Shown here one piece after another: positions 1,116-58,305 of a stretch of DNA of 64,000 bases (within the stretch, counting starts at the first letter, position 1; every line of letters starts with the position of its first letter). Made by a program: the position numbers and the translations under genes. The notes under the pieces are model-generated. The model saw only the letters and a program-made list of their open reading frames with translations. It was not told the origin of the DNA and searched no databases. Location of the stretch: the NCBI RefSeq assembly GCF_009766105.1, contig NZ_LMUH01000025.1, positions 625,190-689,189 of the forward strand. The letters are read 5' to 3'. Origin of the DNA: Granulicella sp. S156. Lineage in GTDB: Bacteria > Acidobacteriota > Terriglobia > Terriglobales > Acidobacteriaceae.

Positions 1116-1679
1116 GTGCCAAGGCCAAAGAGCGACGAGAAGAGGAACGCTATTCTGCAGGCAGCGACGCGCGTCATCGTAATGCAGGGCCTGAGCGCGC
1201 CCACGATGGTCATCGCCAAAGAAGCTGGCGTCGCCAATGGATCGCTCTTCACCTACTTCGAGACCAAGACGGACCTCTTCAACCAGCTCTTTCTTGAGCT
1301 GAAAATGGAACTGGCAACCGGCTCGATGAACCTTCCAGTGGATGCCGAAGTTCGTGAGCAGTTCTTCGACCTGTGGAAGAAGTGGATGAACTGGGCAATC
1401 TCGAACCCGGAGAAGCGGCGAGCGCTCGCACAGCTTAGCGTATCCGACGAAATCACTCCGGTGACCCGTGCAGCAGGACACAAGATGATGGCCCACGTCG
1501 CCGATTTGTTGGATCGCTCTCGCGCCCACGGTCCTATGCAAAAGGTGTCAATGGGTTTCTTGGTTGCTCTCATGAACTCCGTGGCGGAGGCAACAATGGA
1601 TTTCATGACGCAGGATCCGGCCAAGGCAAAGAAGCACAGCAAAGAGGGGTTCGATGCTTTTTGGCGAATGCTGAGTTGA
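1116..1679 (+). CDS. TetR/AcrR family transcriptional regulator
   Basis: A 187-residue protein with a GTG start; the product begins MPRPKSDEKRNAILQAATRV. Residues 10-55 form the TetR helix-turn-helix, ending in GVANGSLFTYFETKTDLFN, the typical recognition-helix region. The C-terminal part is a variable helical ligand domain. A palindrome precedes it and is repeated before the SDR at 1739, so the protein probably represses itself and that enzyme. An ATG two bases upstream is in a different frame, so the GTG is needed. Ligand unknown. Confidence 0.9.
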   Translation: MPRPKSDEKRNAILQAATRVIVMQGLSAPTMVIAKEAGVANGSLFTYFETKTDLFNQLFLELKMELATGSMNLPVDAEVREQFFDLWKKWMNWAISNPEKRRALAQLSVSDEITPVTRAAGHKMMAHVADLLDRSRAHGPMQKVSMGFLVALMNSVAEATMDFMTQDPAKAKKHSKEGFDAFWRMLS

Positions 1680-1700
1680 TTTTCTGATGCTGATGAAGAC

Positions 1701-1710
1701 TGTCTAGACA
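1701..1710. promoter_or_regulatory. palindrome TGTCTAGACA, probable TetR operator (copy 2)
   Basis: Same palindrome as at 1086-1095, here extended to CTGTCTAGACAG (1700-1711). It lies about 28 bases before the SDR start at 1739, a position where bound repressor would block transcription of the enzyme. Confidence 0.6.
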
Positions 1711-1738
1711 GACAATATACGACTAAAATGGAGAAAAA

Positions 1739-2614
1739 ATGTCAATAAAAACAGTAATTATGACAGGTGGAACTGCCGGTTTCGGTGCAGTTGCCGCAAA
1801 GAGAATCTTCAACACCCCAAATACGAAACTGATTCTGGGGGCACGAGACAACAAGAATCCGTCGATCGAAACCCTGCCATTAGATCTGGCCCGTCTTTCG
1901 AATGTTCGGTCCTTCGTTCAATCGCTCACGAAGAATTTGAACGGCACAAAGATCGATAGCCTCATCATGAATGCCGGGGCGCAGTTCGGAAACACCAAGC
2001 ATCGGACAGGTGACGGATTCGAATCGACGTTCGCAATCAACCACCTCGCGCACTATCTTCTACTCAGGCTTCTGACGCCTAGCCTCGCGAAGAATGCCAC
2101 CATCGTTATCACCACGAGCGATGTCCACGATTCAAAGATGGTTCCATTCGGACCGAAGGAACTCGATCCCGAGACGCTGGCTCATCCCAGAGATAAGAGC
2201 AAAGGCTTCGGCCCAGGAATTCGAGCTTACGCAAGCTCGAAGCTCTGCAACCTCCTCACTGCGCGTGCCTTCGAGAACTCCACCGATGCGCAGATGAATG
2301 GCATGCGGGTTATTGCCTACAATCCCGGACTGACTCCCGGCACGTCGCTGTTTCGCGCGTGGCCCTGGTGGGCAAAGTTGATGATGGCGGTGGCTTCCAA
2401 ACTTCGTCCCGTGAATACGATCGAGCAGGCAGGAAATGCGATTGCCGATCTGGGGCTCAGAACGATTGTGCCTCCGTCCGGCCGCATATACGCCTCACTA
2501 GTGAAGGGTAAGCTGACGTGGCCGGATCCTTCGGAACTGGCGCAAAGCGACACGGCAATGAGAGGGCTGTGGGTAGAAAGTGCCCACATGGTCGGTCTGC
2601 CCGGACAAGCTTAA
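1739..2614 (+). CDS. SDR family NAD(P)-dependent oxidoreductase
   Basis: A 291-residue short-chain dehydrogenase resembling the retinol dehydrogenase/protochlorophyllide reductase branch. Visible motifs are the cofactor loop TGGTAGFG (residues 9-16), MNAG in the middle, and the active-site YASSK. A GGAG ribosome site lies just before the ATG. It stands 60 bases after the TetR gene and shares its palindrome, so the two form a regulator-enzyme unit. It converges with the MFS gene that ends at 2671. Substrate cannot be told from sequence. Confidence 0.9.
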   Translation: MSIKTVIMTGGTAGFGAVAAKRIFNTPNTKLILGARDNKNPSIETLPLDLARLSNVRSFVQSLTKNLNGTKIDSLIMNAGAQFGNTKHRTGDGFESTFAINHLAHYLLLRLLTPSLAKNATIVITTSDVHDSKMVPFGPKELDPETLAHPRDKSKGFGPGIRAYASSKLCNLLTARAFENSTDAQMNGMRVIAYNPGLTPGTSLFRAWPWWAKLMMAVASKLRPVNTIEQAGNAIADLGLRTIVPPSGRIYASLVKGKLTWPDPSELAQSDTAMRGLWVESAHMVGLPGQA

Positions 2615-2670
2615 GGGGTTGTCGGGGCCAATATTGAACGGCTTCGTCGAGGAGAGACACCGCATCGCTG

Positions 2671-4149
2671 TCATCGCTTCAGGTCGCCGAGCAGATGTGC
2701 AACCCGTCCCGTGCTGGCTTGCGCCCACGGTGTGCTGGACACCCAGCCGAGCACCAGAACGACAGCACCGCATCCCGTCATGATCCACCAGATGGGATGC
2801 GTAGCCCTTGTGAAGTCCAACCCCTTGGCGTGGCTCGTTGCGACAACGGTGCCGGCCACCGCCACCCCCAGAGTTGCTCCAACCTGACGCCCCGTTGAGG
2901 CGATCGCCGCAGCCACTCCGGCTTGCGATAGGGGCATGCCTGCAACGGCGCTGTTGGTAATCGCCGGGTTGACCATGCCCAGGCCAACGCCAAACAACGC
3001 ATAGGCCACCATCAAGTAGCTCACAGGAGTATCGATCGTCAGATGAGTGAGCATCAGAGTGCTCAGCAGAAAGCCCGCACCGGCAGCCAGCAATGGAAGT
3101 CGTGTGCCGTAGCTACCCACCAGACGCCCGGAGAGCGGCGCAAAGACCATCATCATCACGGCCAGCGGCAGCGTGCAGAGCCCCGTGTAAAAGGCGGAGA
3201 GCCCGCGTACCTGTTGCAGGTACAGAACATTCAGAAAAAGGAAGCCGGCGAACGAAATAAAGGCACAGAGGGCCAGCAGCGTCGCACTGCTGAAAGGCAC
3301 GCTGCGAAAGAAGCGCAGGTCCACCAGGGGATCCTTACGCCGCGGTTCGTACAGGAGGAAGATCGTCAAAGCCACGGCTGACGCAGCAAACAAACCGAGG
3401 ATCAACCCGGATGTCCAGCCGGCATGTGGGCCCTCGATCACCGCGGAGGTCAGGGACGCCAGTCCAACAAACACCAGCGATTGCCCCACGGGATCAAACG
3501 CTCGTGCTCGCGGAGCCTTCGACTCCGGCACGAATTTAGCGGCCAGCACTACCGCTGTAAAGCCGATGGGGAGGTTGATCCAGAAGATGGAGCGCCAGCC
3601 CACGGTCTGTGTCAACGCGCCGCCAAGCAGCGGGCCAATCGCCAGCGAAACGCCTGCCACAGCGCCCCAGACGCCTACAGCGCGCGCCCGATCTTTCGGG
3701 TTCGGAAAAGCATTGGCAATGATCGACAGCGCTACAGGATTGAGCATGGACGCGCCCAGCCCCTGCAACGCGCGGAAAGCGATAAGTTGTCCAATGTTTT
3801 GCGACAAACTGCACAGCAGCGATCCCGTGAGGAATAGAACCAGGCCAATCTGAAAGACACGCCTCCGCCCGAAACGATCCGACATAGAGCCCGAGAGCAT
3901 GAGCAGGCTGGCGACGACGAGCGTATACGCGTCGAGTATCCATTGGAGCCCCGAGAGATTCGCTTTGAGGTCATGCTGAATAGCCGGCAGCGCGACATTG
4001 ACGATAGTGACGTCCATGCCGACGAGCAACAGGCTCATGCAGCATATGCCTAAGATCAGATTCGGGTGGCTCGATTTGTTTACAGGACCGGCCGATGTGG
4101 CGGCGTTGATCCTGAAGGATGGGCTTGATTGTGTGCTGTTTTTTGGCAA
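2671..4149 (-). CDS. MFS transporter, DHA2 (EmrB/QacA) type
   Basis: A 492-residue inner-membrane transporter with about 14 predicted helices. The signature DVTIVNVALPAIQHDL in helix 1 and the motif-A stretch GSMSDRFGRRRVFQIG mark the drug:H+ antiporter-2 family. The first 25 residues are polar, and translation could instead begin at an internal Met near LLLVGMDVTIVN. It lies 56 bases after the DUF1772 gene on the same strand, so co-transcription is possible. It is probably a proton-driven exporter of organic compounds; substrate unknown. Confidence 0.92.
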   Translation of the reverse strand: MPKNSTQSSPSFRINAATSAGPVNKSSHPNLILGICCMSLLLVGMDVTIVNVALPAIQHDLKANLSGLQWILDAYTLVVASLLMLSGSMSDRFGRRRVFQIGLVLFLTGSLLCSLSQNIGQLIAFRALQGLGASMLNPVALSIIANAFPNPKDRARAVGVWGAVAGVSLAIGPLLGGALTQTVGWRSIFWINLPIGFTAVVLAAKFVPESKAPRARAFDPVGQSLVFVGLASLTSAVIEGPHAGWTSGLILGLFAASAVALTIFLLYEPRRKDPLVDLRFFRSVPFSSATLLALCAFISFAGFLFLNVLYLQQVRGLSAFYTGLCTLPLAVMMMVFAPLSGRLVGSYGTRLPLLAAGAGFLLSTLMLTHLTIDTPVSYLMVAYALFGVGLGMVNPAITNSAVAGMPLSQAGVAAAIASTGRQVGATLGVAVAGTVVATSHAKGLDFTRATHPIWWIMTGCGAVVLVLGWVSSTPWAQASTGRVAHLLGDLKR

Positions 4150-19639: not shown

Positions 19640-20137
19640 ATGACACAACCTCTTCTCCAACACATATGCCAGGTCATCTACGACTCCCACGTCGGCACCA
19701 TGATCCGCGAGTCGGACTACGCCTTCTCGATCATCGAATCTGTTCACGTACTGGCGATCACGCTCCTCGTCGGCTCTATCTCCATCCTCGACCTGCGCAT
19801 GCTCGGCCTTATCCTTCGTGAGATTCCGGTCACCCGCGTTTCACGCGCGGTCTTCCCCATCACCTGGACCGGCTTCGCGGTGATGCTCACAAGCGGCCTG
19901 TTGCTCTTTTGGGCCGAGGCAGCGAAGAACTACCTGAACCCCGCCTTTCGCATAAAGCTCTTGCTGTTGCTGCTCGTCGGTCTCAATCCTCTGATCTTTC
20001 ACACATCCATCTATCGCCGCGTTGCAGAGTGGGAACTCCAGCATCGCTCTCCCTGGCGGGCGCGTGCAGCCGCCATCGCCTCGCTCACTCTGTGGAGTGG
20101 CATTATCGTCGCGGGCCGCGCGATCGCTTACTTCTAA
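19640..20137 (+). CDS. DUF6644 family four-helix membrane protein (first of pair)
   Basis: A 165-residue inner-membrane protein with four predicted helices: IIESVHVLAITLLVGSISIL, FPITWTGFAVMLTSGLLLFW, KLLLLLLVGLNPLIFH and AAIASLTLWSGIIVAGRAIA. The His in the first helix and the NPLIFH segment are the notable polar positions. It is a paralogue of the next gene (same RYxWAF-like entry and GVAGRAI/IVAGRAI ending). Function unknown; probably acts with DUF6152. Confidence 0.78.
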   Translation: MTQPLLQHICQVIYDSHVGTMIRESDYAFSIIESVHVLAITLLVGSISILDLRMLGLILREIPVTRVSRAVFPITWTGFAVMLTSGLLLFWAEAAKNYLNPAFRIKLLLLLLVGLNPLIFHTSIYRRVAEWELQHRSPWRARAAAIASLTLWSGIIVAGRAIAYF

Positions 20138-20158
20138 CGCACCTGAGGAATCATCCGC

Positions 20159-20638
20159 TTGCTCGCCGCCCAACATTGGTTTGAACTCCTCTCGCAGTCC
20201 CCGCTCGGACTCTACATGCAGACCAGCCGGTGGGCCTTTGCAGTCGTCGAGATGGTCCACTTGCTCGCTATTGCGGCTCTCGGCGGCTCCGTGTTGCTCA
20301 TCGACCTTCGCCTGCTCGGCGTGATCCTGAAAGGCGAGTCCGCGAAGAGCATAGGCCGCGACCTCGGCCGTATCCTGCTCGGCAGCTTGGTCGTGCTCAT
20401 CTTCTCTGGCATCGGGCTGCTCTCGGAAGAATCCATGAAGTGCTACTTCAGCCCTGCCTTTCGCTGGAAGATGGCCCTTCTCGCAAGCTCCATCGTGTTC
20501 TACTTCACGATTCACCGTCGAGCGTTGAATCGTGCCGGCACGGCTTCCCCTGGAATCGGGCAGAGAACCATCGCAGTGATCTCGATGCTGCTTTGGCTAG
20601 GCGTCGGAGTCGCAGGACGAGCGATTGGATTGATCTAA
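20159..20638 (+). CDS. DUF6644 family membrane protein (second of pair)
   Basis: A 159-residue protein with a TTG start preceded by GAGGA. This start keeps an N-terminus homologous to the first copy; ATG 20216 would remove it. Four helices are predicted, including VVEMVHLLAIAALGGSVLLI and ISMLLWLGVGVAGRAIGLI. The His in VHLLAI is shared with the first copy, as is the AEA/EES loop preceding a short FSPAFRWKM/LNPAFRIKL segment. The pair probably forms a hetero-oligomer in the inner membrane. Confidence 0.78.
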   Translation: MLAAQHWFELLSQSPLGLYMQTSRWAFAVVEMVHLLAIAALGGSVLLIDLRLLGVILKGESAKSIGRDLGRILLGSLVVLIFSGIGLLSEESMKCYFSPAFRWKMALLASSIVFYFTIHRRALNRAGTASPGIGQRTIAVISMLLWLGVGVAGRAIGLI

Positions 20639-20746: not shown

Positions 20747-20881
20747 TGAAGCGGCAATGCAACTTCGGGCAAAACAGGGCTTAAACCACCGCACCGTCTT
20801 CAAAATATCCCTGAGACCAAGCCCCAAAGAAATAAGCAAAACAAATTCTTGACTTCCATCCTGCGTGGCTGATATTTAACC

Positions 20882-20898
20882 TACTACTAGATGTAGTA
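20882..20898. promoter_or_regulatory. BlaI-type operator TACTAC-TAGAT-GTAGTA
   Basis: A perfect inverted repeat of TACTAC/GTAGTA with a 5-base centre lies 25 bases before the BlaI start. It agrees with the known BlaI/MecI/CopY operator pattern of TAC(T)AC..GTA(G)TA dyads. It predicts autoregulation of the blaI-M56 pair. Confidence 0.75.
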
Positions 20899-20922
20899 AA
20901 TACTCCTACAAGGTCAGTAGCG

Positions 20923-21306
20923 ATGCCACCTATCCGCCTCAGCCCCCGCGAAAAGCAGCTCATGGAGATCCTCTGGCAGCAGAGTGAGGCCTCCATCCGC
21001 GAACTCCACGCGGCGCTTCCTACCCGCAAACGCCCCGCTTACACCACCGTCCAAACTCTCATTTACCGGCTCGAAGACAAGCATGCAGTGCGCCGTATCC
21101 GCAAGGTCGGCAACTTTCACATCTTCGCTCCTTCTATCACGCGAGAAGAAACGGAACGCGGCCTCCTCAACGACCTGCTTGCCCTCTTCCATGGCCAGTC
21201 CCGCCCTGTCATAGCTCATCTCATCGAATCCGGCAAACTCACCCGAGAAGACATCGCCTATGCCGAAGACACTCTTAGCGCGTTCGAGAAAGAAGGTCAG
21301 TTCTGA
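20923..21306 (+). CDS. blaI: BlaI/MecI/CopY family repressor
   Basis: A 127-residue winged-helix repressor. The opening LSPREKQLMEILWQQSEASI and the recognition region KRPAYTTVQTLIYRLEDKHA are typical of BlaI/MecI. The C-terminal half provides the dimer and the site cleaved when the partner BlaR1-type protease is activated. Its stop overlaps the start of the M56 gene by one base (TGATG), so the two are translationally coupled. It probably binds 20882-20898. Confidence 0.92.
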   Translation: MPPIRLSPREKQLMEILWQQSEASIRELHAALPTRKRPAYTTVQTLIYRLEDKHAVRRIRKVGNFHIFAPSITREETERGLLNDLLALFHGQSRPVIAHLIESGKLTREDIAYAEDTLSAFEKEGQF

Positions 21307-23207
21307 TGACTACCCTCACCGAGCCAGCAGTATTCCTTCCGCCCGCAGCCTTTCACTCCGTCCAGGCCCTTGCCGCGACGTTCCGCTCAATCGTTCCAGC
21401 CATCGCCAACCACCTCTGGCAATCCACTGCCGTATTTCTGCTCGCGTGGCTGCTCACGCTCCTGCTTCGCCGCAACCGCCCTGCTACCCGGCACGCCATC
21501 TGGCTCGCGGCTTCGCTCAAGTTCCTCGTTCCGTTCTCCACCTTGTCTGTGCTCTCCGGCTTCCTCTACGCACCCCGGACCACAGTACCCACAAGTCATA
21601 TCACCACTGCCGCCCAGGCCGCTGCACAGCCGTTCTTTGCAACGCCACCCACGCACGCGTTCCCACAACCGTTCGTCTCCGCACAGCCCTTGCCTACGGC
21701 ATGGCCAATCATCCTGCTGGCTTCCATTTGGCTCATTGGCGCGCTCCTCGTCCTCACTGTATGGTGTGCTCGATGGCGCACCGCCCGCCAAGTGCTGAAG
21801 GCTTCTACACTCGCCAGGCAGGGCCGAGAGCTCACACTGCTCCGCAGCCTCGAGTCCTCGCTCCCCACACGCCGCACCTTGCCGCTGCACGTGTGCTCTT
21901 CTCTCTCTGAACCGGGACTCTTCGGCGTTCTGCGGCCCAGGCTCATCTGGCCGTCCTCGCTCTCAGAACATCTCACCGACGACCACATCAAATCCATCCT
22001 CCTCCACGAACTCATCCACGCCCGCCGCCGCGACAACCTGACCGCAACGCTCCACATGCTGGTGCAGGCGCTCTTCTGGTTCCACCCTGCCGTCTGGTAC
22101 ATCGAAACCCGCCTTCTCGCTGAGCGGGAACTTGCCTGCGACGAAGCTGTCATTGGCCTCGAAGGTAATCGCCGCATCTACGCTCAAGGCCTTATCAAAG
22201 CCTCATGTCACGCGATCGGCTCGCCACTCCCGTATGCCGCAGGGTTCACCGGCGGCGGTCCGCTCAGCACCCGCATCACCGCAATCCTCCGCACCCAAAC
22301 GCGCTCCCTGACAACGGCGCAGAAGATCATGCTCGCTGCCGTCGCTGTCTGCACACTCGCGGTACCCCTCCTCATCGCGCAGGCCAACCATCGGCTCGAA
22401 TTCGAAGTCGCATCCGTCCGTCAGGCTCCACCCCATTTACCGGAACGCGGCAATGAATCCCTCAATGGCTACGAGCTACAGGGCAAAAGCTTCACTGGCG
22501 GCCTCTTCTCCACCAACGCGCCGCTCTACCTCTACCTTGACTTCGCCTACAAGATCACCGACGTACGCCAGGCCACATCCTTTATGGACCAGATGCCGCC
22601 CTGGGCTCGCGACGTCAACTACACCATCGAAGCCCGCGCCGCCGAGTCCGCCACAGCCGACGACGTCCGTCTCATGATGCGCTCGCTCCTCGAAGACCGT
22701 TTCCACCTCCACCTCCACTCGGAGACTCATGATGCACCAGCCCTCGTCCTCACCCTCGCCCACTCCGCACCCGGCCCGCAGCTACACCTGCACACTGCCC
22801 CCACACCTTGCGTCAGCCGCGCTTCTGCCACGGAAACCATGTCAGCCGGAGGCGTCAACCGCCCCATCTACTGTGGCCTTGACGCGTGGAATGTTGATGG
22901 CCGCCTGCACTTTCGCTACATCAACGCGACGCCATCGCAGCTCACGAGCTCCGTCGGCTCACTCGTCAACGTTTCGCAAGATCCGGGGATGCGTACCTAC
23001 TCCGTAGTCGATGGCACAAATTTTTCTGGTCTTATCGATTTCGATATCGAATTTGTCAAAAACGAGCAGCAGGCCGAGGCGAATCACACCTCCGGGCCGC
23101 TCTTTGATCAGGCTTTCGCACAACAACTGGGCCTGCGCATTACACGCGCCACTGCCCCCGTCACTACACTCATGATCGATCACATCGAGCCACCAACTCC
23201 GAATTGA
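21306..23207 (+). CDS. BlaR1-like M56 metallopeptidase fused to a TIGR03435 domain
   Basis: A 633-residue membrane protein. Residues 1-355 are the M56 part, with helices near WQSTAVFLLAWLLTLLL and IILLASIWLIGALLVLTVWC, the zinc motif HELIH (H234, E235, H238), a downstream ELACDEAV with the probable third ligand, and a last helix LAAVAVCTLAVPLLIAQ. Residues about 362-632 are a TIGR03435 domain, beginning LEFEVASVRQAP and ending in ATAPVTTLMIDHIEPPTPN. In BlaR1 that extracytoplasmic place is held by a penicillin-binding sensor, so TIGR03435 is inferred to sense an unknown envelope signal, leading to cleavage of the BlaI encoded just upstream. Confidence 0.9.
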   Translation: MTTLTEPAVFLPPAAFHSVQALAATFRSIVPAIANHLWQSTAVFLLAWLLTLLLRRNRPATRHAIWLAASLKFLVPFSTLSVLSGFLYAPRTTVPTSHITTAAQAAAQPFFATPPTHAFPQPFVSAQPLPTAWPIILLASIWLIGALLVLTVWCARWRTARQVLKASTLARQGRELTLLRSLESSLPTRRTLPLHVCSSLSEPGLFGVLRPRLIWPSSLSEHLTDDHIKSILLHELIHARRRDNLTATLHMLVQALFWFHPAVWYIETRLLAERELACDEAVIGLEGNRRIYAQGLIKASCHAIGSPLPYAAGFTGGGPLSTRITAILRTQTRSLTTAQKIMLAAVAVCTLAVPLLIAQANHRLEFEVASVRQAPPHLPERGNESLNGYELQGKSFTGGLFSTNAPLYLYLDFAYKITDVRQATSFMDQMPPWARDVNYTIEARAAESATADDVRLMMRSLLEDRFHLHLHSETHDAPALVLTLAHSAPGPQLHLHTAPTPCVSRASATETMSAGGVNRPIYCGLDAWNVDGRLHFRYINATPSQLTSSVGSLVNVSQDPGMRTYSVVDGTNFSGLIDFDIEFVKNEQQAEANHTSGPLFDQAFAQQLGLRITRATAPVTTLMIDHIEPPTPN

Positions 23208-23370: not shown

Positions 23371-24375
23371 CTATGGCTTGTCACCATTCTTGTGTGGGTC
23401 CATGAACGTTGCACCTCTGCTAATGTCTCGGTTCTCGTAAAGAATGGGCACCCATATATACCCGTCGCCATTTGCCTTAAGGTGCCCAACGCCCGGAAAC
23501 GGAAGATGAGGAACGGCGACCAAGGTGCGATCTCTTGCGAATTCAGCAAAGGAGGTCTCACGTACTGCAGCAGCTTTGGCAGGATCGACGTCGTAAGCGA
23601 TGGTGATCTCGGGGGCCGGTGTCTGGACAGCAGCGACATGAATAATGTCACCAACGAATGTGATGGATTGGCCATGACTGCGAAGGATGTAGAAGGTGCT
23701 TCCCGGTGTATGCCCTGGATGAATCACAGCCTCGACCCCCGGCACGACTTCCTCACCGCTATGGAACGGTACGATCTTGCCAGCATCCTGTTCAGGCTTG
23801 AGCGCTGTGTATGCCTGGTCGAAGTAAGACATGGCGTAGTGAGCCTTGGCAGAGTTCGACCGATCCAGGAAGAAGGCCAGATCAGGCGCACTCAGATGCA
23901 CGATCGCATGCGGGAAGACAAGCTGCCCGTTGTGAACAAGACCGCCCATGTGGTCGTCATGAGCATGAGTCAGGAGCACATCGGTAATCTGGTTGGGGCT
24001 CACGTGGATCGACGCCAGGCTCTCGAGAAGCTTGCCACCGTAACCGGGGCCAAAGAAGTCGCCAGCCCCAGTGTCCACCAGCACCACACGCCCTGCATCC
24101 CGGAGCAGAAAGGCGTTGATGGAAGTCTCCACAGGGTTGGAGAGGAAAGCATCATGCAGGAGTGCATCTGTTTTCTGATCGGTGGTGTCGTGTAGCAAAG
24201 TGTGGAGGTCCTGGGGAACGGTGCCGTCCGACAGCGATGTGATCTCGATATCGCCTACCCGAAAGGTATAGTGATTCGCTCCTTGAAGAGCACCTTGCGG
24301 ATTATCGATCGGAGCTTGAGCCCGCACCGCAAAGGTAAAGCAGCACAAACTAAGGGTAAGAAGAAGCTGTTTCAT
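23371..24375 (-). CDS. exported MBL-fold metallo-hydrolase
   Basis: A 334-residue protein from ATG 24373-24375. An earlier in-frame ATG (24483) would add a cysteine-rich extension and is disfavoured. The Sec signal is MKQLLLTLSLCCFTFAVRAQ. The zinc motif is LLTHAHDDHMGG (HxHxDH), with later ligands in IHPGHTPGS and FVGDIIHVA. It resembles periplasmic lactonase/hydrolase members of the metallo-beta-lactamase superfamily. The substrate could be a lactone or beta-lactam-like ring, but this is unproven. Convergent with the M56 gene. Confidence 0.88.
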   Translation of the reverse strand: MKQLLLTLSLCCFTFAVRAQAPIDNPQGALQGANHYTFRVGDIEITSLSDGTVPQDLHTLLHDTTDQKTDALLHDAFLSNPVETSINAFLLRDAGRVVLVDTGAGDFFGPGYGGKLLESLASIHVSPNQITDVLLTHAHDDHMGGLVHNGQLVFPHAIVHLSAPDLAFFLDRSNSAKAHYAMSYFDQAYTALKPEQDAGKIVPFHSGEEVVPGVEAVIHPGHTPGSTFYILRSHGQSITFVGDIIHVAAVQTPAPEITIAYDVDPAKAAAVRETSFAEFARDRTLVAVPHLPFPGVGHLKANGDGYIWVPILYENRDISRGATFMDPHKNGDKP

Positions 24376-24464
24376 GATGGATTTCACTTTCTGAAAGAGG
24401 CAGGTGTGAGCGGTGAGTGAACCGCATCGGCAGCGCACGTACCACCGGAAGTAGGCGCAACGTA

Positions 24465-24623
24465 CTAGGGTTGAACGTCGCACCCGTGAAAGAACGATCC
24501 AGAGAGACCATTCGCAGGAAGGGTGGCAAGGATGACATGCATGCCGCCATGCCCAGGCTGGCGAGCTGTTTCAAAACCAATACCTTTGTTGGCTCCGGTG
24601 ATGAGTGCGCTCTGCTGAGACAT
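24465..24623 (-). pseudogene. SDR gene reduced by a large internal deletion
   Basis: The minus-strand frame from ATG 24621-24623 reads MSQQSALITGANKGIGFETA, the perfect N-terminus of an SDR with its TGANKGIG cofactor loop. After about 30 residues it jumps to ATLPANGLSGSFFHGCDVQP and a stop, which matches the C-terminal end of the same SDR group (usual form LATLPADGPTGGFF). The 180-200 middle residues, including NAG and YxxxK, are missing without a frame break. The 52-residue product cannot be an active reductase. It faces the LysR gene at 24675, whose target it probably was. Confidence 0.7.
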
Positions 24624-46435: not shown

Positions 46436-49051
46436 CTACTCTGCACGCAGCGCTTCCATAGGATCCACCTCAGCAGCCCGCAATGCCGGAATGGCCGCAG
46501 CCATCGCACAGACCAGCAGCAATACCGCGGCCACTGTACCGAGCGTCGACAGATCCAGCGCTTTCACCCCAAACAAAAACGACTTCAACCCATGTCCTGC
46601 CGCCCACGCTGCCGCAGCCCCAGGCACCAGCCCGAGCAGCACCATCTTCCCTGCCTGCTGAAACACGATCCGTACGACTCCTGCTCGCGAAGACCCCAGC
46701 GCCATGCGAACCCCAATCTCCCTGCGCCGCAGTGATACGGAATAAGCCAGCACGCCATATATCCCAATCGCCGAAAGTATCAGCGCCACTCCGCCAAAGC
46801 CTGTCACCATCCGCAACGCCAGCCGTCTTTGCTGCAACGACCCCGAGATCGCATCATCCATCGGCTGCAGACCTAGCTCTGCCATGTTCGGCGCTACCTG
46901 CTTGATAGCTTCGCGCAGCTCCTTGTCTACCGCTGCCTGCGGCAGTGTCGACCGTACCGCAAACTGGCTCACCATACTGAAGAGCGAGGTGAACCCCGAG
47001 CTGATCGGAAGCTGCATGTAGTCCATGTACACCATTGGCTCGAACGGCGCTCCAAGGTCTCCGCCTTGCAAGTCATTCTCAACGACACCCACCACCGTCA
47101 TCGCAGACGTAAACGGTATGTCTGAATCTTTGTCCCCAGGGTCGCGATGCATCGTGATGCTTGTGCCGAGAGGATCACGTCCCGCCAGGAACTTGTTGAC
47201 GAACGCTTGATTTATCAGGACTACTGCGGCTCCGCTTGAATCATCCTGGGGCATAAACCCACGCCCCCGCAGCAGATCTATCCCGCTCGCACGCACAAAG
47301 TTGGCGCTCACCAGACTGTAAAACGCCGTGTCCCCCTCATGAAATACGCGTCCATTGACATCAGTCTTGCCGTTCAGGGAAACGTTGAAATTCGAAAATG
47401 GAAGGGAGCTCTGCATCGTAGCTGACTCAATCCCCGGGAGTGCCGCGAACCGTTCCAATAAACGAGCAACGGTTTGGCGAGCGATCTCCGGAGCGATGTG
47501 CTGATCTTCAGGCATCAGCACCATGGTTGTTACACCACGCGGATCGAACCCCAGCTTCACGTCTTGCAGCGCACGAAGCGTCCGCACAAACAATCCACTC
47601 GTCACCAGCAGCACACAGGTCAACGCAATCTGCAGAGCCACCAACAGACCAGGTAGCCGAGACCTTTGCGTTGCGCGCTTCGTCATCAGTCCAACATCCG
47701 TATGCCGGCGGATACTGAGCGCCGGTGCCAGGGAAGCCAGCACTCCGGCCAATAAAGCAAGCGCAACACTAACCCCAAACACCCCTGGATGAATCGTCAG
47801 CTCATCGAAGCGTGCGAACTTCGATCCATAGCCAGCCTTTACAGTTCTAATCAGCGCATAGGCCAGTGCGCCACCCAGCGCAGCCCCCACCAGTGAAAGC
47901 ACTGCACTTTCGGTTGCCACCTGCTGCAGGAGACGTCCAAAGCTCGCGCCCAGAGCCGACCGGACATTCATCTCCGGCATGCGTCCCGTCGCCCGGGCAA
48001 TTTGCAGGTTCGCCGCATTCGCACAAGAGATCAGCAGTAGTATCGCGACTCCACCCAGCAACGCCAGCAGTGGCCTTTGCATGTCTCCCGTCAGATAGTC
48101 CTTATAGGAGTGCATTTCAAGGGTGTCACGATCTTGCGTGCCTCCTGTCCCCGAGTGCGCAAACACGCTGCTCGCATCGGCAAACGCCTGCTGCGGGGAC
48201 ACCCCTGGTTTCATCCGCGCCATCACCGTAGCCGCATCGCCGCTAAACATGCCAACTTCGCCCGTCGCAATCGGCATATATACCACCGGCGCTTCCGTCC
48301 CCAGCGGAAAATGAATCCCCTCCGGCAACACCCCAATCACCGTCCGCAATTGCCCGGAGATCTTGACGGTCGAGCCAATCACCTTTGGATCTCCATGCAT
48401 CCAGTCCTTCCAGAAAAGAGCACTCACCATCACGACGGGCGTCTTCTCGTCCGCATCGCCCAGCACCCGTCCAAGCTTTGCACGGACATCCAGCATCTTG
48501 AAGAACTGTGGCGTTACCTCCGTGAGTACAGCCATGCGAGTCCCATCGGACGTACCGACAGGCTTCACCATCGTGTTGTATCCGCTCACCGCGGTGAACG
48601 AGCGCGTATCGTGGCGCAAGGCATCAATCTTTGGATAGCTCAGTGCGTAGGTTCTTCCGTCCTGCTGTGCTTTTCCAGAGAGCATCACCAGTTGTTCTGG
48701 ATGAGGCAGCGCCACGGGCCGCAGCAAGACTGAGTCCACAATCGCCAGCATCGCCGTCACGGAGCCCAGGCCAAGCGCCAGTGTAAGCACTACCGTCACC
48801 GCATAACCTGGGGCATTTCTTAAGCCACGGAATGCGTAGCGCACGTCTTGCAGCAGACGTTCCAGCCACACCCATCCCCAGATCTCACGGGCGCGTTCCT
48901 TCGCCAGCAGGACGTTGCCGAACTTCTGCATGGCGGCGTGCCGCGCTTCCTTCGGGGACATTCCGGCGTCGATGTTCTCCTGTATCTCGAAGTCGACGTG
49001 AGTCTGGATTTCGTCTTCTAATTGCTCTCTGCGGCTCTTCCACCAGTGCAT
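46436..49051 (-). CDS. ADOP-type FtsX/MacB-like ABC transporter permease
   Basis: About 871 residues from ATG 49049-49051, 16 bases past the PadR stop; an upstream start at 49096 would overlap PadR. The N-terminal REQLEDEIQTHVDFEIQENI and KEARHAAMQKFGN segment is the hallmark of acidobacterial duplicated orphan permeases. Then come two MacB-periplasmic plus FtsX units: the first has TVVLTLALGLGSVTAMLAIV, the last has LSAIGIYGVLAYSVSLRRRE and IGVRMALGSS. No ATPase gene adjoins it. It may act in efflux or envelope stress with an ATPase encoded elsewhere. Confidence 0.93.
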   Translation of the reverse strand: MHWWKSRREQLEDEIQTHVDFEIQENIDAGMSPKEARHAAMQKFGNVLLAKERAREIWGWVWLERLLQDVRYAFRGLRNAPGYAVTVVLTLALGLGSVTAMLAIVDSVLLRPVALPHPEQLVMLSGKAQQDGRTYALSYPKIDALRHDTRSFTAVSGYNTMVKPVGTSDGTRMAVLTEVTPQFFKMLDVRAKLGRVLGDADEKTPVVMVSALFWKDWMHGDPKVIGSTVKISGQLRTVIGVLPEGIHFPLGTEAPVVYMPIATGEVGMFSGDAATVMARMKPGVSPQQAFADASSVFAHSGTGGTQDRDTLEMHSYKDYLTGDMQRPLLALLGGVAILLLISCANAANLQIARATGRMPEMNVRSALGASFGRLLQQVATESAVLSLVGAALGGALAYALIRTVKAGYGSKFARFDELTIHPGVFGVSVALALLAGVLASLAPALSIRRHTDVGLMTKRATQRSRLPGLLVALQIALTCVLLVTSGLFVRTLRALQDVKLGFDPRGVTTMVLMPEDQHIAPEIARQTVARLLERFAALPGIESATMQSSLPFSNFNVSLNGKTDVNGRVFHEGDTAFYSLVSANFVRASGIDLLRGRGFMPQDDSSGAAVVLINQAFVNKFLAGRDPLGTSITMHRDPGDKDSDIPFTSAMTVVGVVENDLQGGDLGAPFEPMVYMDYMQLPISSGFTSLFSMVSQFAVRSTLPQAAVDKELREAIKQVAPNMAELGLQPMDDAISGSLQQRRLALRMVTGFGGVALILSAIGIYGVLAYSVSLRRREIGVRMALGSSRAGVVRIVFQQAGKMVLLGLVPGAAAAWAAGHGLKSFLFGVKALDLSTLGTVAAVLLLVCAMAAAIPALRAAEVDPMEALRAE

Positions 49052-49067
49052 GACAAGAATCCTTTCG

Positions 49068-49427
49068 CTATTCGTTTTCCTCAGCCATAGGCGCAAGAAT
49101 GCGCCCCATCGCCTCTGAGAACCGCTCCCACTTCGAGGTTTCGGTATAGAGTCTCTTCCGGCCCTTCGCAGTCAGGCGATAGAACCTGGCCTTGCGATTG
49201 TTCTCGGACAGGCCATCCTCGGCCACGATGAGACCAAGCTTCAACAGACGCTGTATCGCCGGATACAAGGAGCCATGGCCCACCTGCAACACCTCTTCCG
49301 ATCGCCGCTCGATGGACTTCGCGATGGCGTGCCCATGAGCATGCCCAAAGGCAAGCGTCTGCAGGATGAGCAGGTCTAAGGTGCCCTGTAAAAGCTCTAA
49401 CTGTTCGTGCTCTTCTCTAGTCGACAT
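49068..49427 (-). CDS. PadR family transcriptional regulator
   Basis: A 119-residue protein from ATG 49425-49427 ([20 protein letters not shown]). The upstream in-frame Met gives an extra 32 residues that do not fit the family. The winged helix ([20 protein letters not shown] and [20 protein letters not shown]) is typical of the PadR-s1 group that precedes ADOP permeases. The permease gene begins 16 bases after its stop, so they form an operon. Confidence 0.93.
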
Positions 49428-52492: not shown

Positions 52493-53266
52493 TCATACCT
52501 TTCCAAGTTCAACCAGTTTCTGACGACCCACTTTGCTCATCTTGAGCCGCTGGCTGTCCATAAGCACGATGGAACCGTCCCCCTGCCCTTCCCGGTAGAT
52601 CTCATGTATCCGGTCGAGATTGACAATCGACGACCGATGAATGCGGGCGAACTGTTTGGGATTGAGTTTGTTGCTCAGGTCGGTGATGGTCTCGCGTAGC
52701 ATGTACCTGCGTCCATTTGTATGGATACAGCTGTAATAGGACGCTGCTTCAATCCAGTCGATCTTTTCGACCGGAACGAGTATCTCTTTCTCGCCATCTT
52801 TCACAAGAAAACGAGAGGGATAGGATCTCGATTCCACAGTCGAGTTCCGCAGTCCGTTCAGCATAGCCGTAAGTTGCTCTTGCGTCATCAGCGCAACCCT
52901 GGCTGCCATCTTCTCTCTTACGCGCTCCACCGCCACCCGCAGCCTCTCGGCGTCTACAGGCTTTGTAAGATAGTCAACGGCATGGACATCAAATGCCCGG
53001 ACAGCGTGCTGATGGTATGCCGTCACGAAGATGGTCGGCGGCAGATGCCGTAACCCAATCTGTTCGACCACATCGAAGCCATCTATATTCGGCATCTGAA
53101 CATCGAGAAAGAGCAAATCCACTGGCTCCGATTGCAGATAAGAGATGGCTTCTCGACCGTTCTGACATCTCGCAACGACTTGAATATCCTCGTGGTCGGC
53201 GAGCAACAGACCGAGGAGGTCACACGCCAGCGGTTCATCATCCACAATCACGGCTCGAAGTGTCAT
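52493..53266 (-). CDS. LytTR family response regulator
   Basis: A 257-residue protein. The receiver domain (VDDEPLACDLLGLLLADHED, phosphoacceptor D55 in LLFLDVQMPNIDG, Lys in YLTKPVD) is followed by a LytTR DNA-binding domain (LVPVEKIDWIEAASYYSCIH to FARIHRSSIVNLDRIHEIYR). Its start overlaps the kinase stop by 4 bases (ATGA), so the pair is translationally coupled. Confidence 0.93.
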   Translation of the reverse strand: MTLRAVIVDDEPLACDLLGLLLADHEDIQVVARCQNGREAISYLQSEPVDLLFLDVQMPNIDGFDVVEQIGLRHLPPTIFVTAYHQHAVRAFDVHAVDYLTKPVDAERLRVAVERVREKMAARVALMTQEQLTAMLNGLRNSTVESRSYPSRFLVKDGEKEILVPVEKIDWIEAASYYSCIHTNGRRYMLRETITDLSNKLNPKQFARIHRSSIVNLDRIHEIYREGQGDGSIVLMDSQRLKMSKVGRQKLVELGKV

Positions 53267-54396
53267 GCCATTGCTCGTTCGTAGGGGATTTGAATGGTGA
53301 CCTCATAGCCTCCGCCCACAGGAGCCACTGCATGGAACTCATAGGCGTCAGGATAGAAATATGCAAGCCTCTCCCTTATGTTCTGCATACCGATGCCGTG
53401 CCCCTTCGTGTCGGAACCAATGGGGCCGCAGCCATTATCTTTGACTTCCATCCAGAGCATGTCTCCTACTCGCTTGACATGGGTTTCTATCAATCCACCC
53501 GCCTCCAAAGGCGCTATTCCATGCTGGATGGCATTTTCGACGATAGGCTGTAAGAGGAAGCACGGGACAAGCCCATCCATTGCTTCTGGAGTCGCATCGA
53601 TCTTTACTTCCAGACGACCGGCAAACCGAACCTGCTGAATAGCCAGATAGCTTTCTACAACTCGCAGTTCCTCAGCAAACGGCACTTTCTCAGGAGCCTT
53701 ACGCTGCAAGGTCGTTCGCAGAATGTTGTTGAGATGGGTCATGGTCTTGATCGCTTCCTTATTTCTTCCCTGAACCATCAGACTCGTAATCGCATTCAGC
53801 GTATTAAAGAGGAAATGCGGCTCCATCTGCATTTGAAGTGCTTTGAGCTGAGCCTGGGTCAACCTGCGCTCTAATTCCAGTGTTTGAACTGTTGCCTCTT
53901 GAGCGTGGTACTGCGCATACCACACGGCGGAAAGGCCGTACACGCAACCATAGATGGCGAGATCCAATCCAAATCTGTTCAGAGAAGTCACATAGAACCC
54001 TGCATAGGCATGCCCCCATGCTAGCCAATGCGTCGAATCCCAGTGAAGCGTCAACGTCAAGAAAACAATGTGAAGTTCCGCAACGATACTGGCAAGTCCT
54101 GCATGAAGCAGCACTCCCTTGGATGACACATTCAAAAATGGCGGCCAGCGTGTAGCGGTCTTCCAAATGAGAACGGTGACACCCACCCACCAGAACCACG
54201 ATGCTGCGCCGAAAAGCAGGGATGGAAGAAACGAGGTACGCACTCCGTGAAAGGCCAGGCTGAGATGGCACTCTCGCGCGGTCATCGTCGTAAGGGCTCC
54301 TGCCGTGATGACGGTCGCCAACAGGCCGAGCGGACCCATGCTTGGCCTGGTCCCCCTTCGTTCTGTCATGAACGGGCTCACTAAGTCTCCTTCCAT
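53263..54396 (-). CDS. LytS-like sensor histidine kinase
   Basis: A 377-residue membrane kinase with about four N-terminal helices (GLLATVITAGALTTMTARE, SWFWWVGVTVLIWKTATRW, LHAGLASIVAELHIVFLTLT and NRFGLDLAIYGCVYGLSAVW). The H-box is ALQMQMEPHFLFNTLNAITS with H194, the LytS/YehU form, followed by the ATPase region (PIVENAIQHGIAPLEAGG, DNGCGPIG, GIGMQNIRERL). It lies 71 bases after the TonB receptor gene on the same strand, suggesting a receptor-kinase-regulator operon. Confidence 0.92.
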   Translation of the reverse strand: MEGDLVSPFMTERRGTRPSMGPLGLLATVITAGALTTMTARECHLSLAFHGVRTSFLPSLLFGAASWFWWVGVTVLIWKTATRWPPFLNVSSKGVLLHAGLASIVAELHIVFLTLTLHWDSTHWLAWGHAYAGFYVTSLNRFGLDLAIYGCVYGLSAVWYAQYHAQEATVQTLELERRLTQAQLKALQMQMEPHFLFNTLNAITSLMVQGRNKEAIKTMTHLNNILRTTLQRKAPEKVPFAEELRVVESYLAIQQVRFAGRLEVKIDATPEAMDGLVPCFLLQPIVENAIQHGIAPLEAGGLIETHVKRVGDMLWMEVKDNGCGPIGSDTKGHGIGMQNIRERLAYFYPDAYEFHAVAPVGGGYEVTIQIPYERAMA

Positions 54397-57233: not shown

Positions 57234-57312
57234 GGGCCGCTTCGTCTCCTGATCCAAAAATCACAGAGACGGCGTATTGAATCCAACACTTTGCAACGAA
57301 GGGGCGTATTCA

Positions 57313-57510: not shown

Positions 57511-58305
57511 ATGAGCAGGAGTTTTAGTCTGTGGAGATGCGCGCTGGCTTGTGTTTTGTTGGCTCCGGTGTGTGCGGTAGCGCAGCAGAGTGCCACACCT
57601 GAAGCGGCGCCCTTGAAGTATGACGTAGTGACGGTGAAGGAGAACAAAAGCCAGGACTACGTCACACGACTTGGCTACACTGAGGGCGACATGCTCAAGA
57701 TGGAAAACGCCAACTTGAGCACGATGTTGTCGGCAGCGTTTGATCTGCACGACTACATGATTGAGGGCGTCCCGGCCTGGGGCAAGAGCCAGCACTTCGA
57801 CGTACAGGGAAAGATTCTGGACGCAACGCCAGAGCAGATCAAGGCGTTGACGATACAGCAGCGGCAAGCGATGCTCGCAGCAGTGTTGCAGCAGCGTTTT
57901 GGTTTGAAGACGCACTGGGTAACCCGCGACAAGCCGAAGTATGAACTGATCGTAGCCAGGAACGGCAGCAAGCTGAAGGCGAGCACAGAGAAGCAAGAGT
58001 CAAGCGCGCTGAACATGGGTGCGCTGGACGCAACCCGCATCACTACGGACGATTTGGCGAAAGATCTGGCGGCGCGATTAGAGAAACCAGTTGTTAATAA
58101 GACCGGATTAACCGGAAGGTACGACATCCAGCTCAAGTGGTCGGTCGAAGGGCAGACATTGAACGGACAGGACGTGCAGGACGGGGAAACAGCGCCGTCG
58201 ATCTTTACGGCAGTGAAAGAGACGCTCGGGCTGGAGCTGAAACCAACGCACGGACCGGTGCAGGTGCTGGTGGTGGACGCAGCCGAACCGCCTACCGCAA
58301 ACTGA
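57511..58305 (+). CDS. exported TIGR03435 family protein
   Basis: About 264 residues from ATG 57511, with GAGG 8 bases upstream; earlier in-frame Mets lie over that site. A Sec signal (CALACVLLAPVCAVAQQ) is followed by the TIGR03435 domain: LKYDVVTVKENKSQDYVTRL, LSTMLSAAFDLHDYMIEGVP, AWGKSQHFDVQGKI, MLAAVLQQRFGLKTHWVTRD and the closing LGLELKPTHGPVQVLVVDAA. The family is a soil-associated group of unknown function. It is divergent from the TonB receptor-LytS-LytTR operon; another copy is fused to the M56 peptidase at 21306. Confidence 0.88.
   Translation: MSRSFSLWRCALACVLLAPVCAVAQQSATPEAAPLKYDVVTVKENKSQDYVTRLGYTEGDMLKMENANLSTMLSAAFDLHDYMIEGVPAWGKSQHFDVQGKILDATPEQIKALTIQQRQAMLAAVLQQRFGLKTHWVTRDKPKYELIVARNGSKLKASTEKQESSALNMGALDATRITTDDLAKDLAARLEKPVVNKTGLTGRYDIQLKWSVEGQTLNGQDVQDGETAPSIFTAVKETLGLELKPTHGPVQVLVVDAAEPPTAN

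Follow-up and report, generated by a model that had tools for sequence, protein, structure and literature searches.

BlaR1 is known as an antibiotic sensor, and the BlaR1-BlaI and MecR1-MecI pairs of Staphylococcus aureus and Bacillus licheniformis are the closest described relatives of the system considered here. Excerpts of PMC9834060 report that BlaR1 cuts BlaI. The DNA analysed (the window) is a stretch of 64,000 nucleotides from Granulicella sp. S156 (NZ_LMUH01000025.1, positions 625,190 to 689,189). It contains a BlaI gene followed by the gene of an M56 receptor-protease, whose exported part is a DUF3738/TIGR03435 domain (Table 1). With a probability of about 0.68, these genes represent a one-receptor, one-repressor proteolytic switch built like BlaR1-BlaI, which has an outer membrane protein (OMP) and a VWFA protein as its output in the best-preserved operons of the family. 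The receptor would work like BlaR1; judged by its domain content, it is not a beta-lactam receptor. The window copy itself is an orphan paralogue, and its only evident target is its own two-gene operon. A search of open-licence PMC found no paper on TIGR03435, DUF3738, TIGR03436 or a BlaI/BlaR1/M56 system in Acidobacteria; an excerpt of PMC10470040 merely names a BlaI and an M56 gene.

Repressor, operator and receptor of the window

An earlier note, made from the letters of this DNA, had described a BlaI repressor, a dyad operator, a one-base overlap and an M56 protease with a HELIH site, and domain searches bear out this description. The window BlaI contains the winged-helix repressor domain of PF03965 and aligns with S. 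aureus BlaI (1sd4, expect value (E) 2.3e-6). The receptor matches Peptidase_M56 of Pfam over residues 39-326 (E 5.5e-43), and the S. aureus BlaR1 structure 8exp matches its residues 140-348 (E 1.4e-6). The BlaI stop codon TGA (21304-21306) and the receptor ATG (21306-21308) overlap by one base. The NCBIfam repressor and BlaR1 models also match the window proteins, but below their own cut-offs (98.9 bits against 400 for the generic BlaR1 model).

The dyad TACTAC-N5-GTAGTA has no mismatch and is located just after the promoter-like pair, the only one found in the region scanned, where 0.6 were expected. No other match exists in the window when up to two mismatches are allowed (expectation 0.37; 32 of 100 shuffles contain one or more), and the genome has no other exact match. 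Because of its place, and because the same dyad class lies upstream of related BlaI genes, it is predicted to act as a BlaI operator at the operon's own promoter. In the repressor, residues H99-L100 align with N101-F102 of S. aureus BlaI; of 73 aligned BlaI rows, 64 have the H and 71 the L, and this position is a candidate cut site for the receptor.

Hydropathy analysis showed four hydrophobic segments in the receptor (residues 36-54, 65-83, 135-153, and 341-359), which places the C-terminal domain outside, as in BlaR1. Like BlaR1 and MecR1, the receptor is a membrane-bound zinc protease of family M56, with HExxH and a Glu as third ligand. The HELIH/E275 site is invariant in the six fusions of the strain's genome, and H234, E235, H238, and E275 are conserved in 89/89 fusions. 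Excerpts of PMC9834060 place the signal peptidase cut of BlaR1 after the last helix, where a small-x-A/G-Q stretch lies in the fusions; this crude motif, used without a chance control, is present in 56 of 86. The position of the C-terminal penicillin-binding sensor of BlaR1/MecR1 is occupied by DUF3738 (Pfam E 6.1e-32, 111.7 bits against a cut-off of 22) and TIGR03435 (NCBIfam E 1.3e-34, residues 365-633, 120 bits against 40). This agrees with the domain swap proposed in the earlier note, and neither Pfam nor NCBIfam found a penicillin-binding domain in the receptor at E 0.001, so the check that the note had set for its own reading did not overturn it.

The extracytoplasmic loop EL1 (84-136 as aligned) is variable save its edges and Pro109-Phe110. 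Among 89 distinct fusions, the Pro is kept in 87 and the Phe in 84, and Pro-Phe occurs in 83 of the 89 loops, against 23.5 expected from shuffled loops. Among distant M56 controls, 4 of 29 frames have Pro-Phe (over a generous membrane-loop region), or 3 if the 24 frames confirmed as M56 are taken; Gln precedes it in none of them. L194, L198, and L205 share the HLWQ start and lack Pro-Phe. For BlaR1, it has been proposed that EL1 lies in the sensor site and is pushed out by the drug (PMC9834060, in excerpt). The Pro-Phe of EL1 might likewise be a candidate built-in plug of the sensor domain.

Table 1. Features of the BlaI-M56-DUF3738 system and of related DUF3738 proteins (window positions unless a locus is named).
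Feature	Position	Strand	Basis and remarks
Sigma-70-like promoter TTGACT-16-GATATT	20849..20876	+	Consensus scan, 9/12 matches; consensus match only
BlaI-type operator dyad TACTACTAGATGTAGTA, spacer 5	20882..20898	.	Window and genome pattern scan, family operator motif; predicted site
BlaI/MecI-family repressor, 127 amino acids	20923..21306	+	Pfam PF03965 (Penicillinase_R), E 1.1e-24, profile 1-110 of 115
M56-DUF3738 receptor-protease, 633 amino acids	21306..23207	+	Pfam, NCBIfam, S. aureus BlaR1 structure match
Extracytoplasmic loop EL1 (residues 84-134), near-invariant Pro109-Phe110 (21630-21635)	21555..21707	+	
Zinc-protease site HELIH (234-238) and E275	22005..22130	+	Conservation in fusions
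Last membrane helix (341-359), ending in AQA signal-peptidase-like stretch	22326..22382	+	Hydropathy
DUF3738/TIGR03435 exported sensor domain (residues 364-633)	22395..23204	+	Pfam, NCBIfam, AlphaFold2
Stand-alone DUF3738/TIGR03435 protein	57511..58305	+	Pfam E 3.2e-50, TIGR03435 E 2.6e-51; same family, circuit membership not shown
Thioredoxin/AhpC-TSA-DUF3738 proteins	L146 3004-4308; L147 2299-3600; L148 2978-4204; L150 2467-3666; L151 2966-4291; L153 2566-4020		Thioredoxin-like part of L150 and L153 slightly under Pfam's cut-offs

Relatives, operators and output genes

In the genome of the strain (6.44 Mb, 26 contigs), 48 matches to DUF3738 (some of them fragments), 10 to M56, and 10 to BlaI were identified, and the BlaI and M56 genes form ten pairs by position. 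Six of the ten M56 proteins end in DUF3738; one of the other four carries TonB_C, one GWxTD, and two have no Pfam match there. None of the ten contains a transpeptidase domain. The fusions account for 6 of the 48 DUF3738 matches, most of which lie outside M56 genes. Across the phylum, DUF3738 is present in 16 of 149 sampled genomes (this one included; completeness at least 90%).

Contigs were scanned with the six fusions, and the best 80 of 180 confirmed places were kept as loci. The fusion is held by 79 of the 80, a count that is partly by construction, since the seeds were the first membrane helices and the ranking used the whole fusion. The loci contain 93 M56 open frames: 72 fusions with BlaI within 600 bases upstream, 15 without, several of which are second copies or lie at contig ends, and 6 frames without a DUF3738 match. 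BlaI is found upstream of 72/87 fusion genes, and the BlaI-M56-TIGR03435 arrangement first noted in the window is kept, with BlaI and operator, in related contigs. We take the lineages of the loci to be Acidobacteriota, except L106 (Phycisphaerae); L106 resembles L105, and its label may reflect misbinning. Among a further 26 M56 proteins from the phylum (L142, L091, and 24 found in 29 control loci), 6 carry TonB_C, 2 TPR, 1 HEAT, and 1 HlyD; the 25 of 34 families listed include no transpeptidase domain. The M56 gene of L091 (7377-9281), immediately behind an M56-DUF3738 gene, has a part of the HlyD efflux-adaptor type where the sensor would be. A plasmid search returned 27 records, none spanning 80% of the query; the annotated ones among the 20 rows listed are BlaR1, MecR1 or M56 over part of the query.

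The operator motif was recovered de novo from 76 upstream regions (70 from relatives, 6 from the strain's genome). ACTA-N6-TAGT is present in 25 of them (shuffled mean 0.2) and CTAC-N4-GTAG in 13 (shuffled mean 0.14). CTAC-N5-GTAG is present in 2; the N5 spacer of the window dyad is one base longer than the N4 core of the family. The refined matrix scores at least 13 in 56/76 regions, against 1.9/76 when retrained on shuffles and 0.5% of shuffles with the same matrix. At the threshold of 6, 70 of 71 sites sit 15-60 bases ahead of the start codon; this threshold is weak, being passed by 71/76 regions against 12% of shuffles (same matrix) and 39/76 after retraining.

The genes that follow the receptor were compared in the 71 testable loci, where 600 bases or more follow the receptor run; eight other loci fell short of this length and one lacked the fusion. 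In 20/71 loci, the next gene found on the same strand past the receptor/DUF3738 run encodes an Oar-like OMP, 18 by the strict gap rule and two (L082 and L101) added with a gap of up to ~590 bases; where at least 3 kb remains after the run, the count is 19/56. In the 1.17 Mb of loci, 26 OMP open frames were found with a profile seeded mainly from operon OMPs; 20 follow such a run and six lie elsewhere. Five operon OMPs scanned with Pfam contain CarboxypepD_reg and OMP_b-brl_4. In 18 of the 20 cases the OMP is followed on the same strand by a VWFA protein, 56-74% identical to the VWFA protein of the strain's genome; no such protein follows at L116, and the contig ends at L087. The OMP-VWFA spacing is mostly a few bases (further at L085 and L126 by the first ATG), and the VWFA protein of L134 lies in two frames. 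Two VWFA proteins were profile-scanned and belong to TIGR03436, a VWFA family (234.7 and 236.6 bits, cut-off 81.25).

The best-preserved operons also contain 0-4 extra DUF3738 genes. On contig 7 of the strain's genome, BlaI, M56-DUF3738, DUF3738, OMP, and VWFA genes follow in that order on one strand. A transposase and two further DUF3738 genes lie just upstream of this operon (L230 12771-16336), and the cluster may be rearranged. Over 19 operons, the median identity rises from DUF3738 (40.5%) through M56 (50.5%) and OMP (54.8%) to VWFA (63.3%), which looks like a varying sensor coupled to a steadier output. On the receptor tree, there are 16 changes of the OMP label (7 of them forced by starred branches), against a shuffled mean of 18.4-18.6; the OMP is thus scattered rather than confined to one clade. 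The genes for the barrel and its secreted VWFA partner are the strongest clue to the output of the switch, and suggest a role in the cell envelope and not in antibiotic resistance. Since they lie outside the window, the earlier note could not have seen them.

The DUF3738 domain and its stand-alone copies

The AlphaFold2 model of the receptor DUF3738 has a predicted local distance difference test (pLDDT) of 86.5 and a predicted template-modelling score (pTM) of 0.79. With the whole domain as query, Foldseek found no match with an E of 0.001 or lower; the C-half, whose model has a pLDDT of 78.5 and has lost the last strand, gave none at E 0.001 either. A VIA-align search with the domain returned one chain (Z 2.8); absence from these fold-search lists does not show a new fold. 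A profile search of PDB sequences gave troponin as its best match (E 0.09), which was judged to be chance. The N-half and C-half of the domain align with each other in hhalign (probability 56%, P 1e-4, 84 columns), which suggests that DUF3738 may be an old internal duplication. Two residues are conserved in at least 90% of 88 sequences, a Pro and, three positions after it, the terminal Asn. This near-invariant asparagine (residue 270 in the model) closes the chain of DUF3738 proteins.

An assignment of DUF3738 to the secretin N0/STN domains was considered but gained no clear support. The C-half resembles STN by eye, but hhalign against 28 STN sequences gave a probability of 4.2% (E 0.0098) for the C-half, 0.3% for the N-half, and 1.8% for the whole domain. 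The intended negatives gave 0.06-1.2%; one negative pair reached 19.8% over 12 columns, where the seed ran into the start of DUF3738.

Fused and stand-alone DUF3738 domains are mixed on the tree. The labels change 38 times over 136 rows, against a shuffled mean of 43; values as low occur in 27-30 of 500 shuffles, starred branches force at least 13 of the changes, and some stand-alone labels could be artefacts of truncated records. Eleven of 66 stand-alone rows resemble the last helix and linker of the receptor at E <0.001, and 8 at <1e-6; one cut fusion was excluded, and the weaker matches may be chance likeness of hydrophobic leaders. A hydrophobic stretch lies ahead of the domain in 29 of 36 stand-alone rows of the strain's genome. 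A second architecture, thioredoxin/AhpC-TSA-like proteins with a divergent C-terminal DUF3738, occurs mostly in other families of the phylum. In L018 (~1483-3123, minus strand), a DUF3738 protein of the strain's genome (~543 residues) combines an N-terminus that is permease-like by eye with a remnant of the M56 last helix. The window also encodes (46436-49096) what we take, by eye, to be a large permease of the MacB/FtsX kind, its N-terminus like that of Acidobacterial orphan permeases.

The earlier note had identified a stand-alone TIGR03435 protein at 57511, correctly by the domain search, and had raised a general envelope sensor family. Its surroundings include 52493-54396 and 54468-57257: the gene diverges from one for an Oar-like OMP, on whose far side are a kinase-like and a LytTR-regulator-like gene, the last two named by eye. 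The mixed tree and the stand-alone copies inside some receptor operons are consistent with the general idea. The 57511 gene near a regulator/kinase-like pair is a single case, and an operator score above 10 was found in 0/40 stand-alone DUF3738 rows of the strain's genome, against 13/600 control frames drawn from loci that hold operators. A BlaI regulon of stand-alone genes is not supported by the operator scan, nor by genome-wide patterns, for which the reversed control gave as many matches or more.

Proposed mechanism, alternatives and known systems

By position and family, BlaI on the dyad beside its own promoter would hold the operon off. The receptor would span the membrane with four helices, with the M56 zinc protease in the cytoplasm and DUF3738 outside. 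A periplasmic signal would meet DUF3738 and turn the protease on, probably through release of the Pro-Phe loop from the sensor domain, and the activated protease would then cut BlaI and open the operon. In the best-preserved family operons, the output would be an Oar-like OMP and a TIGR03436-like VWFA protein, with 0-4 DUF3738 genes alongside. A broader picture is tentative, and we hold it to be somewhat improbable in its entirety: a widespread Acidobacteriota envelope switch (BlaI, M56-DUF3738, any number of DUF3738 genes, Oar-like OMP, and TIGR03436-like VWFA) whose fast-evolving, Pro-Phe-plugged ectodomain monitors an outer membrane uptake or display complex, and in which BlaI proteolysis opens the operon. 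Secreted DUF3738 proteins would be co-sensors or decoys, and DUF3738 a duplicated alpha/beta module.

Several observations weigh against the switch as proposed. Signal binding by DUF3738, which the earlier note had drawn from the domain swap, stays a prediction; the fold and profile searches brought to light neither a ligand or pocket nor a recognised fold. The M56 proteins that serve as EL1 controls are distant, and the contrast with them may partly reflect relatedness; L091, with its HlyD-type part instead of DUF3738, keeps Pro-Phe. The family matrix scores only 8.3 at the window, at a weaker site nearer the start than the dyad, and distant operators in the strain's genome are not supported (9 places against 9 in the reversed control). 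The operon of the window contains no OMP or VWFA gene, the next gene being convergent. No OMP follows the run in 51 of the 71 tested loci; less than 3 kb remains in 15 of the 71, and some of these are blind. Five operon OMPs and two OMPs of the window were the seeds of the OMP profile, which may miss unlike OMPs elsewhere. A general adjacency of DUF3738 and OMP genes in the strain's genome is not supported, as 2 of 48 lie within 3 kb against 3.6 expected, by an OMP list with 65 of 162 candidates scored.

Other explanations may account for the same data. DUF3738 might be a protein-protein module that docks on other DUF3738 domains, the OMP or the VWFA protein; the receptor would then signal whether an envelope complex is assembled or occupied, and not the presence of a small molecule. 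This is a serious possibility, rated a little short of even: stand-alone genes adjoin receptors and OMP genes in the same operons, both forms of the domain mix on the tree, 11 of 66 stand-alone rows recall the last helix and linker, and the domain is also joined to thioredoxin-like proteins. Against it, a stand-alone gene stands next on the same strand, within 300 bases, at only 9 of 86 fusion genes (5 at contig ends). It is unlikely that the window copy is a decaying paralogue whose drifted DUF3738 no longer signals. Its domain ranks 41 of 48 in the genome (115 bits), the T-G-L-x-G-x-Y-D stretch reads T-N-F-S-G-L-I-D, the operator spacer is N5, and the output genes are absent; however, the open frame is intact, HExxH, E275, and the EL1 Pro-Phe are kept, and the dyad is perfect.

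An ordinary beta-lactam resistance regulator, whose DUF3738 binds beta-lactams or wall fragments and whose target is a lactamase, is very improbable. The homology of BlaI and M56 favours it, as does a metallo-beta-lactamase-fold gene downstream of the receptor (23371-24483), but this gene is convergent and has a general superfamily match only. The dyad does not recur in the window even with two mismatches allowed, the M56 proteins surveyed (the ten of the genome, and the 26 others within the families listed) are free of transpeptidase domains, and the generic BlaR1 score falls far below its cut-off. Upstream of BlaI, two adjacent DUF6644 membrane proteins are encoded (19640-20638).

On balance, the earlier note describes the genes correctly but interprets them too broadly. 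The proteolytic switch would be the BlaR1 machine, fitted with a different sensor and put to use in one of the major soil phyla. The operon found in part of the family links TIGR03435, TIGR03436, and a large class of outer membrane barrels, and gives a testable handle on the role of expanded families such as the 48 DUF3738 matches of one genome. The natural sensor swaps may also help in studying signal transfer across the membrane by M56 receptors.

In comparison with BlaR1-BlaI and MecR1-MecI, the system shares the repressor beside the receptor, the dyad operator, the four-helix M56 protein with HExxH and a later Glu, the EL1 loop, the exported C-terminal domain, and the signal-peptidase-like site before it. 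It differs in that the exported domain is DUF3738, not a penicillin-binding domain, that no lactamase target is evident here (the operons of relatives were not searched for lactamase genes), and that the operon continues into OMP and VWFA genes in part of the relatives. As a member of TIGR03435/DUF3738 (PF12543), the exported domain belongs to a family found mainly outside M56 genes in this genome. The M56 receptors with TonB_C, GWxTD, TPR, HEAT or HlyD have the same M56 core and an exchanged exported module; they differ in that module, and Pro-Phe occurs in the membrane-loop region of 3 of the 24 confirmed controls. A possible parallel is FecR-FecA-type surface signalling, which connects a periplasmic sensor with an outer membrane transporter-like barrel, but uses a sigma and an anti-sigma factor where the present system has a repressor and a protease.

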